In this document: positions 2,712 to 49,912 of the stretch, in pieces | Layout: each line of letters opens with the position of its first letter | Numbering within the stretch: the stretch's first letter is position 1 | Assembly: GCA_012744435.1 (NCBI GenBank) | Contig: JAAYCA010000007.1 | Span: 1 to 64,000 of the forward strand | Direction of reading: 5' to 3' | DNA from: Bacteroidales bacterium | Lineage (GTDB): Bacteria; Bacteroidota; Bacteroidia; Bacteroidales; UBA932 | DNA: 64,000 nucleotides | Notes under the pieces: model-generated | The model's input: only the letters and a program-made list of their open reading frames with translations | Database searches by the model: none | What the model was told of the DNA's origin: nothing | Position numbers and translations under genes: made by a program

Positions 2712-5434
2712 AACAGCGTCGGCTCTTCAAAGAGACCGCCGGGGATGTCCGGGACCTCGTCGAGTTTCGCGGGAGTGGGGGAGTCCTCGACTTCGCCGGG
2801 AATGACAAGCGGTGAATCTCCCTCGTCTTCCGGTTCCGGTTCGGGTTCGGGCTCGGGCTCGGGCTCGTCGATGATCAGCGGTTCGATAAAGCGGACGGAC
2901 TTCACCTCGCCGCGCTCGGCGCATTTCTTGCCCTTGGCGGCGATGCCCTTCTTGGCAATCCAGTTCTCGGCCTCGACGGTTTCCGGCTCTTTGTCGGAAA
3001 GTTTCCAGCTGATCTCGTAGCGGGGATGCGCATCGCCGCTGAGCTCCACGAGGTAGGACTTCGGCGAACTGGAGATGAAGCTGAGCGGGGTGTTGTCGCT
3101 GAGAACGAAAGAGAAGCGCTTGACGTAGAAGTTCTTGACGGAGCCGTCCCAGTACAGGGCGGTAAACACCTTGTCCGGGTCGAACTTCTCGATGAGCAGC
3201 ACGTCGCCCTGATACTTGTTGACCAGCTCGAAGGAGGTGGTGTAGAAGGTGCCGTTGCGGAACACCGCCAATACTTTGTCGCCGTCCTCGAACTGTCCCA
3301 GGTACAGTCCATGGCCGTCTTCATTGAGCTTCTGGATGTCGGTGTCGTACCAGATGTCCTTGCCGGCGATCGTGCTTACGCCCTTGCTGCGGAGGCTGAT
3401 CGTGCGGATGGCGTTCTTGCTCACGAGGTTGCCCCGGGCGGTCTTGCTCTTGATGGCGAGGTTGGAGAAGTCATATTCGAAACTTGTCTTCTTCAGCTTC
3501 GGCTTCGGCCGGAGCGCCACGCGCACGGTCTCGGCCTCGCCGTTGTGGTTGGCCGTGAACCAGACGATCTGCGAGCCGGGCTTTCCGGTCGTGATGTCGT
3601 ACTCTTTGTCACGCGTCACGGAAGTGACGGCGAAACGCTTCGCATAATAGACGGAAGTCTTGCCATCCCGATAGATGACGTTGTAGATGGTGCGGGAATC
3701 GCCGCGGTTGAAAAGCCCCACATACAGCAGGTCCTTGCCGAAGAAGGCTTTGTCTTCGACCTTGGTGATCCGGTACTTGCCGTCCTTGCCGATGACGATG
3801 ATCTCGGAGAGGTCGGAGCAGTCGCAGATGAACTCGCCGCCGTCGTCGCGCTTGAGACCGATGCCCACGAAGCCTTCCGCCAGGTTGGCCTGGAGCTTGG
3901 CGTTGTTGTTGATGACCTTGGTGGCCGCGATGGCTTCAAAATCAGTGAGCTCTGTGCGGCGCGGGAAATCTTTGCCGTATTTCTTTTTCAGGCTCTTGAA
4001 CCAGTCGATGGTGAAACGGTCGATGTGTTCGATCTGATCCCGCACGACGGCCATCTGGCCCTCCAGGGAGAGAATCTTCTCGTCGATGGCTTTCGTGTCG
4101 AACTTGGAGATCTTGCGAACGGGCTTCTCCACGAGTTTGAGGATGTCCTCCATGACGATCTCCCTCTGGAACAGGTCCTGATACATCTTCATCTGCGTGA
4201 AGATGTCCTGCAACTGGGCGTCCCAGTCCTTCTGGTCCTGCTCGAGGACCTTGTAGATGCGGTTCTCGAAGAAGATCCGTTCCAGGGAACTGTAGTGCCA
4301 GTCGGCCTCGAGCTCGTCGAGTTTGATCTGCAATTCCTGCAGGAGCAGGTCGCGGGTGTGGAAAGTGCCGTATTCAAGGATGTCGTGGACCGTGAGGAAT
4401 TGCGGTTTGTTGTCCTTGATCACGCAGGCGTTGGGGGCGATGTTGATCTCGCAGTCGGTGAAGGCGTACAGTGCGTCGATCGTCTTGTCGGGAGAGACGT
4501 CGTTGGGCAGATGGATCATGATGTCCACCTTGTCGGTGGTCATGTCTTCGATTTTCTTGATCTTGATCTTGCCCTTGTCTTTGGCGCGGAGCACGGAATC
4601 GATGATGTCCTTGGTGTATTTCCCGTAGGGGATCTCCGTGATGGCAATCGTGTTCTTGTCGATCTTCTCGATGCGGGCGCGCACCTTGACGGAACCGCCG
4701 CGGCGGCCTTTCAGGTATTTGCTGCAATCGGCGGAGCCGCCGGTGGGGAAGTCGGGATAGATCTCGTAGGGACGGCCCTCGAGAATGGCTACGGATGCGT
4801 CCAGCAGTTCATTGAAGTTGTGGGGAAGGATCTTGGAGGCGAGGCCCACGCCGATGCCTTCCGTGCCCTGCGCGAGCAGGAGCGGGAAGCGGACCGGGAG
4901 CTCCGTAGGCTCCTGGTTGCGGCCGTCGTAGGAGTTCATCCAATGGGTCACCTTCGGATCGAATACCACCTCCTTGGCAAACTTGCTGAGACGGGCCTCG
5001 ATGTATCGCGGCGCTGCATTGGAATCACCGGTGAGGATGTTGCCCCAGTTGCCCTGGCAGTCGATCGTGAAGCCTTTCTGGCCCAGCTGGACAAGGGCGC
5101 CGAGGATGGACTGGTCGCCGTGGGGGTGGTACTGCATGGCCTGCCCCACGATGTTGGCGACTTTGGTGTATGCGCCGTCGTCCATGCGGAACATGGCATG
5201 GAGGACGCGCCGCTGTACGGGCTTCAATCCGTCCGCAATGTGCGGAACGGCCCGGTGCAGGATGACGTATGAGGCGTAGTCCAGATACCAGTCCTTGAAC
5301 ATCCCGGAGAGCTTGAACTTGCGAGCGTCGCTCCCCAGCAATCTGTCATAGCGGCTGGAGGATTCTCCTTCTTCGTCGATGACCTTGTCCTCTTCTTCGA
5401 TTTCTTCAGGTGTTGTGATCTTCTCTTCTTCCAT
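2708..5434 (-). CDS. parC: DNA topoisomerase IV / gyrase subunit A
   Basis: GyrA/ParC motifs: HRAVPHIADGLKPVQRRVLHAM, QYHPHGDQSI, NWGN..GDSNAAPRYIEARLSKFA (active-site Tyr). C-terminal acidic EPEPEP tail. Confidence 0.9.
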   Translation of the reverse strand: MEEEKITTPEEIEEEDKVIDEEGESSSRYDRLLGSDARKFKLSGMFKDWYLDYASYVILHRAVPHIADGLKPVQRRVLHAMFRMDDGAYTKVANIVGQAMQYHPHGDQSILGALVQLGQKGFTIDCQGNWGNILTGDSNAAPRYIEARLSKFAKEVVFDPKVTHWMNSYDGRNQEPTELPVRFPLLLAQGTEGIGVGLASKILPHNFNELLDASVAILEGRPYEIYPDFPTGGSADCSKYLKGRRGGSVKVRARIEKIDKNTIAITEIPYGKYTKDIIDSVLRAKDKGKIKIKKIEDMTTDKVDIMIHLPNDVSPDKTIDALYAFTDCEINIAPNACVIKDNKPQFLTVHDILEYGTFHTRDLLLQELQIKLDELEADWHYSSLERIFFENRIYKVLEQDQKDWDAQLQDIFTQMKMYQDLFQREIVMEDILKLVEKPVRKISKFDTKAIDEKILSLEGQMAVVRDQIEHIDRFTIDWFKSLKKKYGKDFPRRTELTDFEAIAATKVINNNAKLQANLAEGFVGIGLKRDDGGEFICDCSDLSEIIVIGKDGKYRITKVEDKAFFGKDLLYVGLFNRGDSRTIYNVIYRDGKTSVYYAKRFAVTSVTRDKEYDITTGKPGSQIVWFTANHNGEAETVRVALRPKPKLKKTSFEYDFSNLAIKSKTARGNLVSKNAIRTISLRSKGVSTIAGKDIWYDTDIQKLNEDGHGLYLGQFEDGDKVLAVFRNGTFYTTSFELVNKYQGDVLLIEKFDPDKVFTALYWDGSVKNFYVKRFSFVLSDNTPLSFISSSPKSYLVELSGDAHPRYEISWKLSDKEPETVEAENWIAKKGIAAKGKKCAERGEVKSVRFIEPLIIDEPEPEPEPEPEPEDEGDSPLVIPGEVEDSPTPAKLDEVPDIPGGLFEEPTLF

Positions 5435-6320: not shown

Positions 6321-7651
6321 TACACGTAAGCCCCCATCTTCAAAATATTGGTCTCGCCCTCGGTGAGATATCTCCATTCTCCCTTCTTGAGCCCTTTCTT
6401 GGTCAGGCCCGCGAAGTACACGCGGTCGAGTGCCTTGACGTTGTAGCCCAGGCTCTCGAAGATACGGCGTACGATGCGGTTCTTGCCGGAGTGGATCTCG
6501 ATGCCGAGCTTGCGCTTGTCGTTCGCGTCGATGAACTCCAGTTCGTCGGCCTTGACTTCCCCGTCGCTCAGGACGACGCCGGCCATGATCTTGTCGTAGT
6601 CTTCCTGGGAGAGGGGACGGTCGAGCGCCACCTGGTAGATCTTCTTCTTGTCATAGGCGGGATGGGTGAGACGTTCGGCGATCTCGCCGTCGTTGGTCAG
6701 CATCAGCACGCCGGTGGTATTCTTGTCCAGCCGGCCCACCGGATAGACGCGGTTGGGACAGTTTTTGACCAGGTCGATGACGGTCTTCTCGGCATGGGGG
6801 TCGCTGGCGGTGGTCACGTAGCCCTTGGGCTTGTTCATCACGATATAGACTTTCTCCTCTCCCTTGAGGCGCTCGCCGTTGAAGCGGATGTCGTCGGTAA
6901 AGATATTGACCTTGGTGCCGAGTTCGGTCACCACCTCGCCGTTGACGGTCACGACGCCGGCCTGGATGAGGGTGTCGGCTTCGCGGCGCGAGCAGACTCC
7001 GGAGTTGGCGATGAACTTGTTGAGACGGACGGTATCCTGGATCGGGGAAGGATACGGCACCTCGCTGCTTTCGTTCCCGTTTACGACGGGACGGCGGCTG
7101 ATCATGCGGTTGATGCCTTCGGTGGATTCACGGGTGAAGGCGGGCTTGAAGCCGGGCTTCTTGCCGCCCCTGGGCTTACCCGGGCCCTGCGGCCTGCCCT
7201 GCGGTTTGCCGGCGCCGTACGGGCGCGGCTTGCGGCTGTCGCCATAATTGCTCCGGCTTTCGCCATAGTTGCCCCGGCTCTCGCCATAGCTTCTTTTTTC
7301 GCCATAAGGGCGGCGCTCGCCCTGATCCTGGCGGCTGCCGGTGCCGCGGCTCTCGCCGAAGTAGCGGTTCTCGCCGTAAGGGCGCTGCGGACGGCCTTCT
7401 CCGTAGCTGCGTTTTTCTCCGTAGCTGCGCTTTTCTCCATAGCTTCTTTTTTCGCCATAGGGACGGTTCTCACCGTAGGGGCGTTTCTCGCCATAGGATC
7501 GGCGCTCGCCGTAATGGCTGCCGTGATGTTCGCCGGATGCGCTCTTGTGCGCTTCGGGCGTGTACTCCACTTTTTCGGAGTGGGGGTGATCCCCGGTCGT
7601 TTTCCGTGGTCTAAGTTTGCGACCTTCTTTTGTAAACTGGTCCATTGTCAC
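6320..7651 (-). CDS. RluB/RsuA-family pseudouridine synthase with long repetitive N-terminal extension
   Basis: S4 domain (RLNKFIANSGVCSRREADTLIQAG), catalytic GRLDKNTTGVLMLTNDG, GKNRIVRRIFESLGYNV; N-terminal YGEKRSYGE repeats. Confidence 0.9.
   Translation of the reverse strand: MTMDQFTKEGRKLRPRKTTGDHPHSEKVEYTPEAHKSASGEHHGSHYGERRSYGEKRPYGENRPYGEKRSYGEKRSYGEKRSYGEGRPQRPYGENRYFGESRGTGSRQDQGERRPYGEKRSYGESRGNYGESRSNYGDSRKPRPYGAGKPQGRPQGPGKPRGGKKPGFKPAFTRESTEGINRMISRRPVVNGNESSEVPYPSPIQDTVRLNKFIANSGVCSRREADTLIQAGVVTVNGEVVTELGTKVNIFTDDIRFNGERLKGEEKVYIVMNKPKGYVTTASDPHAEKTVIDLVKNCPNRVYPVGRLDKNTTGVLMLTNDGEIAERLTHPAYDKKKIYQVALDRPLSQEDYDKIMAGVVLSDGEVKADELEFIDANDKRKLGIEIHSGKNRIVRRIFESLGYNVKALDRVYFAGLTKKGLKKGEWRYLTEGETNILKMGAYV
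7220..7510 (-). repeat. Degenerate tandem repeat encoding YGE(K/N/S)R units
   Basis: Protein segment YGERRSYGEKRPYGENRPYGEKRSYGEKRSYGEKRSYGEGRPQRPYGENRYFGESR...; repeated cgccata / tctcgcca units in the DNA. Confidence 0.85.
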
Positions 7652-8427
7652 TTGAGATTAAAATAATAAGTAATTGTGCCCTGCTGCATGGCAGGGGCGT
7701 CCGCACTCATGTTGAAGTGCGTTTCCATCGCAGCCTTGCGGGCCGCGGCATGGAGGGTTTTGTCCAATACGGTGGTGCCGTCGCCTCCCGGCACGGCTCT
7801 CGCTACGTTTCCGTAGTTGTCCACCCAGATGTCCACTACTACTATACCGCTTTCCTGGACGTTGTACACGGGCCGCGGGATGTTGCCCACGGTGTTGCGT
7901 CCCTGAACGTGTGCGTTCGGCTTGCCGTCCGTCCGTCCGCTTTCCGTATTGCCGCGGGCCTGGCCGGCCTTGAAGGCATCGTCCGCCTCGGTTGCATCGT
8001 GGGGCGTCGTGGCGGACGTGTCCTTTCGGGCCATGCCCGGGAACGCGGCGCGCGGATCGAGCGCGGGTTCTTCCTGCGGCGGAGCGGGCACGTCGATATC
8101 ACCGACAGGATCCGGCTCCGTCTGCGGGGTTAGGTTGTCAAGCTCCCCTTCGTAGGGAGAATCGCTCTGTTGCGTCAGCTCCACGGGCCGGTCGGGATCG
8201 ACTTCCCGTGCAAGCGGTTCCCGCCCCTGGGGCTGCTGCATGAGGATGTCGGGCGTCTGCTCGAAATCGATCAGCATGCTTTGCTCCTGCGGCGGGGGAT
8301 AGATGTATTTCAGACCGGAGAACGAGACGAGGACGAGGGTGCAAAGATGGACGACCGCCGACATGACGATGCCGGTGATCCTGGCGTTGCGCTCGCGCTT
8401 CTGCCTGATTATCTGGTCATTCTGCAT
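7648..8427 (-). CDS. TonB-family energy transducer
   Basis: N-terminal TM anchor, Pro/Glu-rich middle, TonB-like C-terminus (GIVVVDIWVDNYGNVARAV...), adjacent to exbD/exbB. Confidence 0.8.
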   Translation of the reverse strand: MQNDQIIRQKRERNARITGIVMSAVVHLCTLVLVSFSGLKYIYPPPQEQSMLIDFEQTPDILMQQPQGREPLAREVDPDRPVELTQQSDSPYEGELDNLTPQTEPDPVGDIDVPAPPQEEPALDPRAAFPGMARKDTSATTPHDATEADDAFKAGQARGNTESGRTDGKPNAHVQGRNTVGNIPRPVYNVQESGIVVVDIWVDNYGNVARAVPGGDGTTVLDKTLHAAARKAAMETHFNMSADAPAMQQGTITYYFNLK

Positions 8428-42385: not shown

Positions 42386-44878
<2,493 letters not shown>

Positions 44879-44903
44879 CTTGAGAGAAGTCTTCCAAATA
44901 ATA

Positions 44904-44938
44904 AAAAACGTCCGTGCGAATCTCGCACGGACGTTTTT
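44904..44938. terminator. Bidirectional terminator between convergent esterase genes
   Basis: AAAAACGTCCGTGCGA-atc-TCGCACGGACGTTTTT, perfect 16-bp stem with A tract/T tract on both sides. Confidence 0.93.
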
Positions 44939-44954
44939 GTACAGGTAGGTTTTA

Positions 44955-46169
<1,215 letters not shown>

Positions 46170-46205: not shown

Positions 46206-48335
46206 ATGGCAAAGAAACAGACCAAAGGCTATCCCTGGAAATACTGCTCCCTGGGCGGTGTGGTCCGGGTCAACATTACTTCCGGTGAGGATATTGCCCA
46301 TCTCGGAGAGCTGGATCAGAAGCTATGGACGGTCCTGAGCTGCCCGACCCGGAATCTCGCGCTCGACAGCCGTACCCTGCAGCTGATCGACTCCGACGGC
46401 GACGGTCGCGTCCGCGTGGCGGAGGTCGTTTCCGCGGCGCAGTGGCTGACCTCCGTGCTCAAGGACAGGGACGCCATCCTCAAAGGAGAAAGCGTGCTGC
46501 GGCTCGACGGCATCGACACGGACTGCGAGGCCGGGCAGAAGCTCTTTGCTTCCGCGAAACAGATTCTCTCCAATCTCGGTTTGGAAAAGGACGAAATCAG
46601 TGTGGAAGAGGCTTCCGACAGCGTCGCCATTTTCGAGAAGACGCAATTCAACGGCGACGGCGTCATTACGCCCGCTTCTGCGGATGATGAGACGCTTCGT
46701 CCGCTGATCGAGACGATTGCCGGAAAGATCGGTTCCACGACGGACCGCAGCGGCGAAGCCGGTATCACGGCAGAGCACATCGAGGCGTTCTACGCCGCCC
46801 TCGCGGACTATGCCGCCTGGCAGGATGCCGCTGAGGCCGGGAAGGCCGCCATCTTCCCGTATGGGGACAATACTGCGGCGGCCCTGGACGCCTGCGAGGC
46901 CGTCAAGGACAAGGTGGCCGATTACTTCATGCGCTGCAAGCTCATCCGTTTCGACGACGCCGTCGCGGGCGCCGTGGATCTGTCGGCGGACCGCGTGGGG
47001 GCGATCAGCGACAAGAACCTTGCGACGCAGGCCGAGGAGATTGCCACTTATCCGCTGGCCCGTCCCGCCAGGGAGGCCGTACTGCCCTTCGATGCCATCA
47101 ATCCGGCATGGCAGGCAGCTTTCGCCGCTGTCAAGGCCCTGGTGCTGGATGTCGATTTCCCGAAAGCGAAAGGCATCACCGAAGAGCAGTGGCAGGGCAT
47201 ACTGGACAAGTTCGCGCCGTACTGCGCCTGGCTTGCGGACAAGAAGGGCGAAGCGGTGGAGGCGCTGGGGCTGGACGAAGTCAAGGCCCAGCTGAAGGCA
47301 GACCGCAAGGCGGAACTGCTCGCGCTGGTCGAATCCGACTTGGCTCTCAAAGAGGAAGCGGAATCCATTGACGGGGTGAAGCGCCTGATGCTGTACTACC
47401 GCGATTTCGCGAAGCTCCTTCGCAACTATGTGATATTTACGGACTTCTATGGACGCAAACAGGGCACGCGCGGCATCTTCGAGGCCGGCCGCTTATATAT
47501 TGACGAGCGCTGCTGCGACCTCTGTATCAAGGTCGCTGACATGGGAGCACATGGCGACATGCCCAAACTCAGCGGGATGTTCCTGCTCTACTGCAAGTGC
47601 ACGTCCAAGGCCAAGGGCGAGACGATGGACATCGTGGCCGTGATGACGGACGGCAAGACCCGCGACCTCCGTCCCGGCAAGAACGGTCTCTTCTACGACC
47701 TTGACGGGGCCGACTGGGATGCCGTGATCACCAAGGTCGTGGAGAATCCCATCAGCATCAAGGCAGCGTTCTGGAGCCCTTACCGCAAGGTGGCGAATTT
47801 CATCTCGGACAAGATCGACAAGTCTGCTGCCGACAAGGACGCCGCGGCGCTGAGCAAGCTCCAGACCACGGCAGATGCAGGCCCTGCCGGCGCCAAGCAG
47901 CCTTTCGATATTGCCAGGTTTGCCGGCATCGCCGCGGCCGTGGGCATGGCCCTGGCCGGTATCGGCGCCGTGCTCGTCGCGCTTGGGGCGGCCGTCAAGA
48001 GCCTGGTCTGGTGGCAATGGATCGTCATCATCGCCGCCGTGATGCTCATCATCTCCGGCCCGTCCTGCTTCATCGCCTGGCGCAAGCTCCGCCGGCGCAA
48101 CCTCGGCCCCGTGCTCAACGCCAACGGCTGGGCCATCAACTCCGTCGTGCTCGTCAACATCCTCTTCGGCAAGATCCTCACGAGCGTGGCCAAATACCCG
48201 AAGATGAAGCTGGATGATCCGTATGCGAAGCGCACGCCCCTGTGGCGCAAGATCCTGTGCTGGGTGCTGGTCCTGCTGGTGATCGCTTTCGGCGTGCTGT
48301 ACTTCACCCATCATCTCGGTTGGCTGGGATTGTAA
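46206..48335 (+). CDS. Uncharacterised membrane protein with EF-hand-like calcium-binding motifs
   Basis: Canonical EF loop DSDGDGRVRVAE; further EF-like FNGDGVITP and DRSGEAGITAEHIEAFYA; C-terminal TM helices (IARFAGIAAAVGMALAGIGAVLVALG, WWQWIVIIAAVMLIISGPS, ILCWVLVLLVIAFGVLYF). Confidence 0.85.
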   Translation: MAKKQTKGYPWKYCSLGGVVRVNITSGEDIAHLGELDQKLWTVLSCPTRNLALDSRTLQLIDSDGDGRVRVAEVVSAAQWLTSVLKDRDAILKGESVLRLDGIDTDCEAGQKLFASAKQILSNLGLEKDEISVEEASDSVAIFEKTQFNGDGVITPASADDETLRPLIETIAGKIGSTTDRSGEAGITAEHIEAFYAALADYAAWQDAAEAGKAAIFPYGDNTAAALDACEAVKDKVADYFMRCKLIRFDDAVAGAVDLSADRVGAISDKNLATQAEEIATYPLARPAREAVLPFDAINPAWQAAFAAVKALVLDVDFPKAKGITEEQWQGILDKFAPYCAWLADKKGEAVEALGLDEVKAQLKADRKAELLALVESDLALKEEAESIDGVKRLMLYYRDFAKLLRNYVIFTDFYGRKQGTRGIFEAGRLYIDERCCDLCIKVADMGAHGDMPKLSGMFLLYCKCTSKAKGETMDIVAVMTDGKTRDLRPGKNGLFYDLDGADWDAVITKVVENPISIKAAFWSPYRKVANFISDKIDKSAADKDAAALSKLQTTADAGPAGAKQPFDIARFAGIAAAVGMALAGIGAVLVALGAAVKSLVWWQWIVIIAAVMLIISGPSCFIAWRKLRRRNLGPVLNANGWAINSVVLVNILFGKILTSVAKYPKMKLDDPYAKRTPLWRKILCWVLVLLVIAFGVLYFTHHLGWLGL

Positions 48336-49531
48336 TGGAACTACCGGAATTCCTTGCGATCGAACGGGCCAACGTAGGCCTTTTCTGTGATGTTTTCCCG
48401 CCCGTGATGGACGGGGTGTCCGTGTGCATGCAGAACTATGCCTACTGGATGCAGAAGAAGGTGGGCGGCGTGTGCGTGGTCACGCCGAATGTGCCGGATG
48501 CGGACTACAGCGTGCATGATTACAAGGTGTACGACTATTTTTCCGTCCCGGTCCCCAAGCGAGCCCCGTATGTGACCGGCATTGCTGAAATCGATCCGGT
48601 CTGGCTCGCGAAAGTCGCCAGGACGCGTTTCAAGATCTTGCATGCGCATTGCCCGTTTGCCACGGGACTTGTTGCGCAGCGCATCGCGCGCCTGCAGGGG
48701 ATTCCCCTGGTCGCGACATTCCACTCCAAGTACCGCGACGACTTCTCCCGCGTGCTGCCCAAGATCGCGGTGGACCTGGCGATCGACGCGATCGTGGAAT
48801 ATTACGAGCGGGCCGACCTCGTATGGGTGCCGCAGGAGTCCACGGTCGAGGTGCTCCGTGAATATGGCTACACCGGCCATGTGGAGGTGATGGACAACGG
48901 TTCCGACCTCGTGGCGGACTATCCCGAAAAGTATTTCGTGGAGGCCCGGCAGCGGCTGGGGATTGCTCCTGAGGAGTTCGTGATGCTGTTCGTGGGCCAG
49001 CATATCTGGGAGAAGAATCCGCGCCTGATCATCGAATCCCTGGCCCGCATTCCGGACATTCCCTTCCGGATGTATTTCATCGGCGTGGGTTATGCGGCCG
49101 AGGAGATGAAGGACCTGGTATCGGAACGGGGACTGGATGAAAAGGTTACCTTCGTGGGATCGATTACCGACCGCGCCCGCCTGACGGATTATTACGCCGC
49201 TTCGGACCTGTTCCTGTTCCCTTCTCTCTACGACAATGCACCGCTGGTCGTCCGCGAGGCGGCGGCCCTGAACACGCCGGCCGTGATGGCGGAAGGGGCC
49301 ACGGCCGCCACCATCCTCCAGGATGGCGAGAACGGGTTCCTGGTGGAGAACGATGCGGACAGGATGGCGGAGTTGCTTCGCAGCCTGATCCATGATCCGC
49401 AGCGCGTACACCGTGTGGGGGTGCAGGCTTCCAAGACGATCGTCCGTTCGTGGGAGGACTGCGTGGAAGAGGTGCTGGACCGCTATAATGCGCTGCTGCG
49501 CAGTCGGGGCTTGCCGCTTGTCGAAAGGTAA
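48335..49531 (+). CDS. Glycosyltransferase family 4 (glycolipid-synthase-like)
   Basis: NVGLFCDVFPPVMDGVSVCMQNYA, LHAHCPFATGLVAQRIAR, ATFHSKYRDDF, FPSLYDNAPLVVREAAALNTPAV. ATG overlaps the preceding stop (TAATG). Confidence 0.9.
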   Translation: MELPEFLAIERANVGLFCDVFPPVMDGVSVCMQNYAYWMQKKVGGVCVVTPNVPDADYSVHDYKVYDYFSVPVPKRAPYVTGIAEIDPVWLAKVARTRFKILHAHCPFATGLVAQRIARLQGIPLVATFHSKYRDDFSRVLPKIAVDLAIDAIVEYYERADLVWVPQESTVEVLREYGYTGHVEVMDNGSDLVADYPEKYFVEARQRLGIAPEEFVMLFVGQHIWEKNPRLIIESLARIPDIPFRMYFIGVGYAAEEMKDLVSERGLDEKVTFVGSITDRARLTDYYAASDLFLFPSLYDNAPLVVREAAALNTPAVMAEGATAATILQDGENGFLVENDADRMAELLRSLIHDPQRVHRVGVQASKTIVRSWEDCVEEVLDRYNALLRSRGLPLVER

Positions 49532-49544
49532 AATGCCGCAAGGT

Positions 49545-49575
49545 TTTGGAAATTCGCGAAATATGTCTAAATTTG
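49545..49575 (+). promoter_or_regulatory. Bacteroidota-type promoter TTTG-N19-TAAATTTG for rpsO
   Basis: TTTG 49545-49548, 19-nt spacer, TAAATTTG 49568-49575. Confidence 0.7.
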
Positions 49576-49636: not shown

Positions 49637-49912
49637 ATGGCTGAATATTTGATGCCTGAGAAGAAGCAAGAGATTTTCGCGAAGTACGGGAAGTCCAATA
49701 AGGACACCGGCTCTCCTGAGAGTCAGGTTGCTTTATTTTCCTACCGTATCGCTCACCTTACCGAGCACGTGAAGAAGAACAAGAAAGACGTGGTCACGCG
49801 TCGTTCTCTTCTCCGCCTCGTCGGTAAGCGCCGCCAGATCCTGGATTACCTCCAGCAGGTGGACATTGAGAGATACCGTAATATCGTCAAGGAGCTCGGT
49901 CTCCGTCGATAA
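49637..49912 (+). CDS. rpsO: 30S ribosomal protein S15
   Basis: [46 protein letters not shown]. Confidence 0.97.

Follow-up and report, generated by a model that had tools for sequence, protein, structure and literature searches.

The window analysed here, 64,000 nucleotides of a gut or rumen Bacteroidales genome, contains a gene for a 709-aa EF-hand protein (the EF gene) immediately followed by one for a GT4 glycosyltransferase, and raises the question of whether the two form a system of their own. A sequence-only reading had proposed a translationally coupled pair in which a calcium-responsive membrane protein serves the synthesis of a glycolipid or surface glycan. The overlap of two genes in a single genome was not evidence for a two-gene system.

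The EF gene was confirmed as an open reading frame at 46206..48335 (+), and its stop codon overlaps the GT4 start in the sequence TAATG at 48333..48337 (+). The overlap itself is observed, and we infer from it that translation of the two genes may be coupled, which is less than had been claimed. A Bacteroidota-type promoter, TTTG-N20-TAAATTTG, lies ahead of the EF gene at 46138..46169 (+). The neighbouring rpsO (ribosomal protein S15; 49637..49912, +), which is outside the unit and varies in position relative to the pair among relatives, has its own promoter, TTTG-N19-TAAATTTG, at 49545..49575 (+). The two ORFs, their overlap, and the promoter of the pair are where they had been reported. The general motif, TTTG-N18..22-TAnnTTTG, occurs four times in the 64 kb compared to 0.14 expected, and two of these occurrences precede the EF gene and rpsO. 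A TAnnTTTG box is found no more than 80 nt upstream of the EF gene in 23 of 33 loci with an adjacent GT4 gene and in 20 of 57 other homologs, compared to 3.8% in shuffled sequence. The stretch directly upstream of the EF gene, 42473-46064 of the window, encodes three PF00756 esterases related to one another, of 394, 401, and 369 aa, with two genes on the + strand and one on the -, and they resemble the feruloyl-esterase part of xylanase/feruloyl esterases.

The second gene (48335..49531, +) encodes a protein of 398 aa, and its assignment to GT4 was borne out by Pfam matches above cut-off to PF00534 (Glycos_transf_1; 4e-29) and PF13439 (Glyco_transf_4; 1e-17). At the catalytic position, where E-x7-E is expected, D-x7-E (DNAPLVVRE) is present in 31/31 aligned orthologs, and because the domains are conserved and this motif is invariant, the enzyme is probably active. 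The best NCBIfam matches, MshA, GlcN-PG synthase, alpha-MGlcDAG synthase, and BshA, share the GT4 family with the window enzyme; however, its scores of 71-93 bits are far under their cut-offs of 274-480, including the equivalog cut-offs for GlcN-PG and MGlcDAG synthase, and so these activities are not assignable. The enzyme probably glycosylates a lipid.

Across relatives, the pair is a real operon in one clade. The GT4 gene is adjacent in 33 of the 42 members of the window's clade, defined on a quick tree with some long branches, and in 0/49 homologs outside it. At the 33 loci the distance from EF stop to GT4 start ranges from -16 to +14 nt, the flanks vary both upstream and downstream, and no promoter box was found in the gap between the genes, which supports co-transcription of EF and GT4 from one promoter in this clade. 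Most close relatives (L023-L039, L071) additionally carry a four-gene reverse-strand cassette downstream of GT4 that is absent from the window, with genes of ~561, 410, 883, and 240 aa; the first of these matches MG2 below threshold. In one relative (L024) a second GT4 gene, ~69% identical, lies upstream at 6725-7885 and is divergent from EF, so that EF stands between two GT4 genes. Several members of the clade without an adjacent GT4 gene (L047, L051, L057, L073) have long branches in the tree, which would fit faster evolution of their EF proteins; L074 and L058 are GT4-adjacent exceptions to this pattern.

Such an arrangement could be operon hitch-hiking, in which a rearrangement brought EF and GT4 together under a shared promoter without linking them functionally. 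This is a serious, if tentative, possibility, and it bears only on the pairing and is compatible with the explanation of the EF protein favoured below. It is consistent with what accompanies GT4 elsewhere, as a flippase-like LPG_synthase_TM gene lies directly beside GT4 in 7/11 of the EF-less GT4 contexts read. These pairs (L106-L109 and L163-L165) come from about four independent lineages, with LPG_synthase_TM called by Pfam for three loci and by similarity for the rest, and involve GT4 orthologs 47-70% identical in other genomes. In contrast, GT4 in the window clade adjoins EF, and the LPG_synthase_TM ortholog of the source genome (54% identity) is on another contig. The simplest history would be that GT4 was separated from LPG_synthase_TM and came to stand behind EF in the clade's ancestor.

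The neighbours of EF also argue for hitch-hiking, since in the 49 outside homologs and nine clade members they are many and different and have no common theme: a permease with serine palmitoyltransferase, MATE with a PatB-type lyase, an exo/endonuclease-phosphatase with an OMP, a TetR-like with a FabG-like gene, and others, as well as, outside the class, VTC with DUF4956 in a family there. Against it stands the tight spacing of EF and GT4, which has been maintained through genus-level divergence.

Two of these neighbourhoods were followed as possible functional links. In a single other family (L151-L153) EF has VTC and DUF4956 as neighbours, and GT4 adjoins them in one genome. Among 60 genomes EF and VTC co-occur in 3 compared to 2.0 expected, which is not above chance, and this link remains a lead only. 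At L163 (6258-9841; the genome of L040), a GT4 ortholog that overlaps LPG_synthase_TM was seen beside DUF2490, DUF4956, and VTC-domain genes. Three sister species have a serine-palmitoyltransferase-like gene at a distance of two genes from EF, and the source genome has a near-cut-off match to serine palmitoyltransferase (617 vs 640 bits); the sphingolipid link was dropped, as nothing ties GT4 to this enzyme.

A dedicated role for the EF protein as a calcium-responsive GT4 partner or regulator, controlling glycolipid or surface-glycan synthesis, is unlikely. The 33 relatives do hold their close spacing despite changed flanks and an altered length of the EF C-terminus, and the gap without a promoter box points the same way, but none of this extends beyond the clade. 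Besides the lack of adjacency there, genomes with a non-adjacent EF gene rarely contain a matching enzyme at all: among 30 such genomes, a GT4 ortholog occurs elsewhere in 3 (64-71% identity), another 3 have only a relative at 34-35%, and 24 gave no match at 1e-30. Most of the genomes compared are draft MAGs, in which single absences are weak evidence. Within 60 genomes of the source's own family, EF is present in 15 and GT4 orthologs in 9, and the 2 genomes with both compare to 2.25 expected by chance. GT4 orthologs are also found in genomes without EF, and the recurrent partner of GT4 elsewhere is LPG_synthase_TM. An obligate EF-GT4 unit was rejected on neighbourhood, co-occurrence, and genome-level searches. 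The earlier reading had named rare adjacency of homologs to GT4 as grounds for refuting it, and outside the clade this is what is seen. What stands of the two-gene system is a predicted co-transcribed pair within the clade, at best a derived, clade-level arrangement; a Ca2+-glycan system beyond it is unsupported, and the task of the EF protein must be independent of the window-type GT4. Conservation of the gene pair makes a regulatory link within the clade possible, and hitch-hiking is at least as likely.

The nature of that task can be approached from the protein itself. Loop 1, DSDGDGRVRVAE (residues 62-73; 46389..46424, +), satisfies the 12-residue EF-hand pattern as DxDxDGxIxxxE and is as canonical as had been noticed. 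It is nearly invariant in 92 homologs (D62 in 92, D64 in 86, D66 in 92, G67 in 91, I/V69 in 92, and E73 in 85 with D in the other 7), and a counterpart, DTDKDGRIRVPE, is present in another class of the phylum. The two further EF-like segments are conserved but lack canonical ligands at position 1 and/or position 12. Loop 2, QFNGDGVITPAS (residues 147-158; 46644..46679, +), begins with Q/K/R and finishes with S, with NGDG (149-152) present in 90/92 homologs. Loop 3, DRSGEAGITAEH (residues 180-191; 46743..46778, +), is non-canonical at positions 5 and 12, with D180 and G183 invariant (92/92) within a conserved DRSG..G at 180-186. Partner loops of non-canonical sequence are known among EF-hand proteins.

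AlphaFold2 (AF2) models, with a mean pLDDT of 79 for the whole protein and 86 for residues 1-262, place a helix-loop-helix around loop 1 (helix 55-61, strand 68-70, helix 71-84; pLDDT ~90) and, as in EF-hands, short strands close to the loops. In the PDB, the profile built from residues 1-262 matched hardly anything but EF-hand proteins, and did so at two separate places, residues 55-90 (CDPK AK1, 6.5e-5) and residues 140-200 (the EF-hand pair of EhCaBP, 0.003). Weak Pfam EF-hand matches occur in 36-39 of 48 members, and the best single-sequence PDB match was polcalcin (E=0.14). With Foldseek, most of the 50 best matches of residues 1-262 were EF-hand proteins, including MICU, NCS-1, CDPK, calcineurin B, and calmodulin, although none was individually significant (best E 0.15), and the whole AF2 model gave nothing significant against PDB and viral libraries. 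From these profiles and models, we conclude that residues ~27-260 form a predicted multi-EF-hand domain that is divergent and has a single canonical site, loop 1, at which Ca2+ or Mg2+ probably binds.

The remainder of the protein consists of a helical middle, to ~410, a conserved beta-rich domain at ~425-512, and a C-terminal membrane region at residues ~569-700 (47910..48305, +) identified by conservation, AF2, and hydropathy. Hydropathy indicates hydrophobic helices at ~575-593, 606-624, and 683-701 and a weaker fourth at 643-661, and AF2 predicts C-terminal helices at 569-598, 602-629, and 679-700, in keeping with the long helical region and about three transmembrane helices seen earlier. 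Between the helices at 602-629 and 679-700 lies a conserved segment, R.l.P.LNANGWA.N....FG..LT..a..P. Most EF relatives end in an acidic tail of ~30 aa, which is missing from the window protein and from a few others. Because no signal peptide-like start is evident at the N-terminus and KLRRR follows the second transmembrane helix, hydropathy and charge suggest that the N-terminus and EF domain are probably in the cytoplasm.

The same features could be read as a membrane scaffold or transporter accessory in which an ion merely stabilises the domain and the EF loops are structural, with no sensing. The canonical ligands missing from loops 2 and 3 would fit, as would the strong conservation that the C-terminal membrane segment and beta-rich domain share with loop 1. 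However, the canonical loop 1 hardly varies, and no transporter family matched the 709-aa protein at cut-off, making this reading improbable.

Searches of Pfam and NCBIfam returned nothing above cut-off for the 709-aa protein, and below-cut-off, scattered matches to MFS_1, SLATT, Holin-X, and HlyD were dropped. A single GTDB genome scan yielded 211 candidate stretches, of which the best 80 were retained, all titled Bacteroidota, and 92 homologs were read. Besides the 15 of 60 genomes in the source's own family, sampling across the phylum (396) turned up just five carrier genomes, from two families outside the class. Furthermore, an Aeromonas salmonicida plasmid carries a fragment that matches the EF profile over ~148 positions (2e-40), from which the family extends to Gammaproteobacteria, at least as a fragment; no full-length Gammaproteobacterial member was found in the collections searched. 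This unannotated fragment on plasmid pBY3 (L159, ~4374-4805; 148 aa matched) is near tet(Y) and, across the record start, within 5 kb of sul2. The family spans rumen and gut Bacteroidales and another Bacteroidota class, with a fragment on an Aeromonas plasmid. A phage origin of the EF gene was rejected, as a search gave no phage match. On sequence grounds, the 709-aa protein is a member of a genuine, unnamed, and uncharacterised family, and the earlier description of an uncharacterised EF-hand membrane protein holds.

The explanation that we consider reasonably probable is an inner-membrane EF protein acting as a cytoplasm-facing Ca2+/Mg2+ sensor, with a GT4-independent task and a clade-level GT4 operon. 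Its soluble part would lie in the cytoplasm and bind Ca2+ (or Mg2+) at loop 1, and a conformational change in the EF domain would reach either the membrane end or a partner. The conserved membrane end would be the output of the protein, with an activity independent of GT4, and in the window clade EF would be transcribed in one operon with a probable lipid-glycosylating GT4.

EfhP (PA4107) of Pseudomonas aeruginosa is an EF-hand protein with reported Ca2+ binding and Ca2+ regulation (PMC9132961, PMC4053335). As described there, it resembles the 709-aa protein in being a bacterial protein with EF-hand motifs, but has two canonical EF-hands compared to one canonical and two divergent loops here, and the window protein differs in its 709 aa, beta-rich domain, and C-terminal transmembrane helices. 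Bacterial calmodulin-like EF-hand fusions to transmembrane domains, to which a role in membrane-associated signalling has been ascribed, have also been surveyed (PMC7016017) and, like the 709-aa protein, join EF-hand regions to membrane domains; that text mentions neither Bacteroidetes nor glycosyltransferase. A literature search found no description of this domain order and no publication on the EF family or the EF-GT4 pair.

It is very unlikely that the protein represents an undescribed class of membrane calcium sensor with three unequal EF-hands, recruited in the clade to gate a glycolipid-forming GT4; if true, cell-surface lipid composition would respond to cytoplasmic calcium. The EF protein, probably a cytoplasm-facing sensor, belongs to a real, uncharacterised, and moderately interesting family. 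Little is understood of calcium signalling in bacteria, and the EF-hand membrane proteins characterised so far are few; this family places a near-invariant canonical EF loop on a membrane protein that is missing from both Pfam and NCBIfam.
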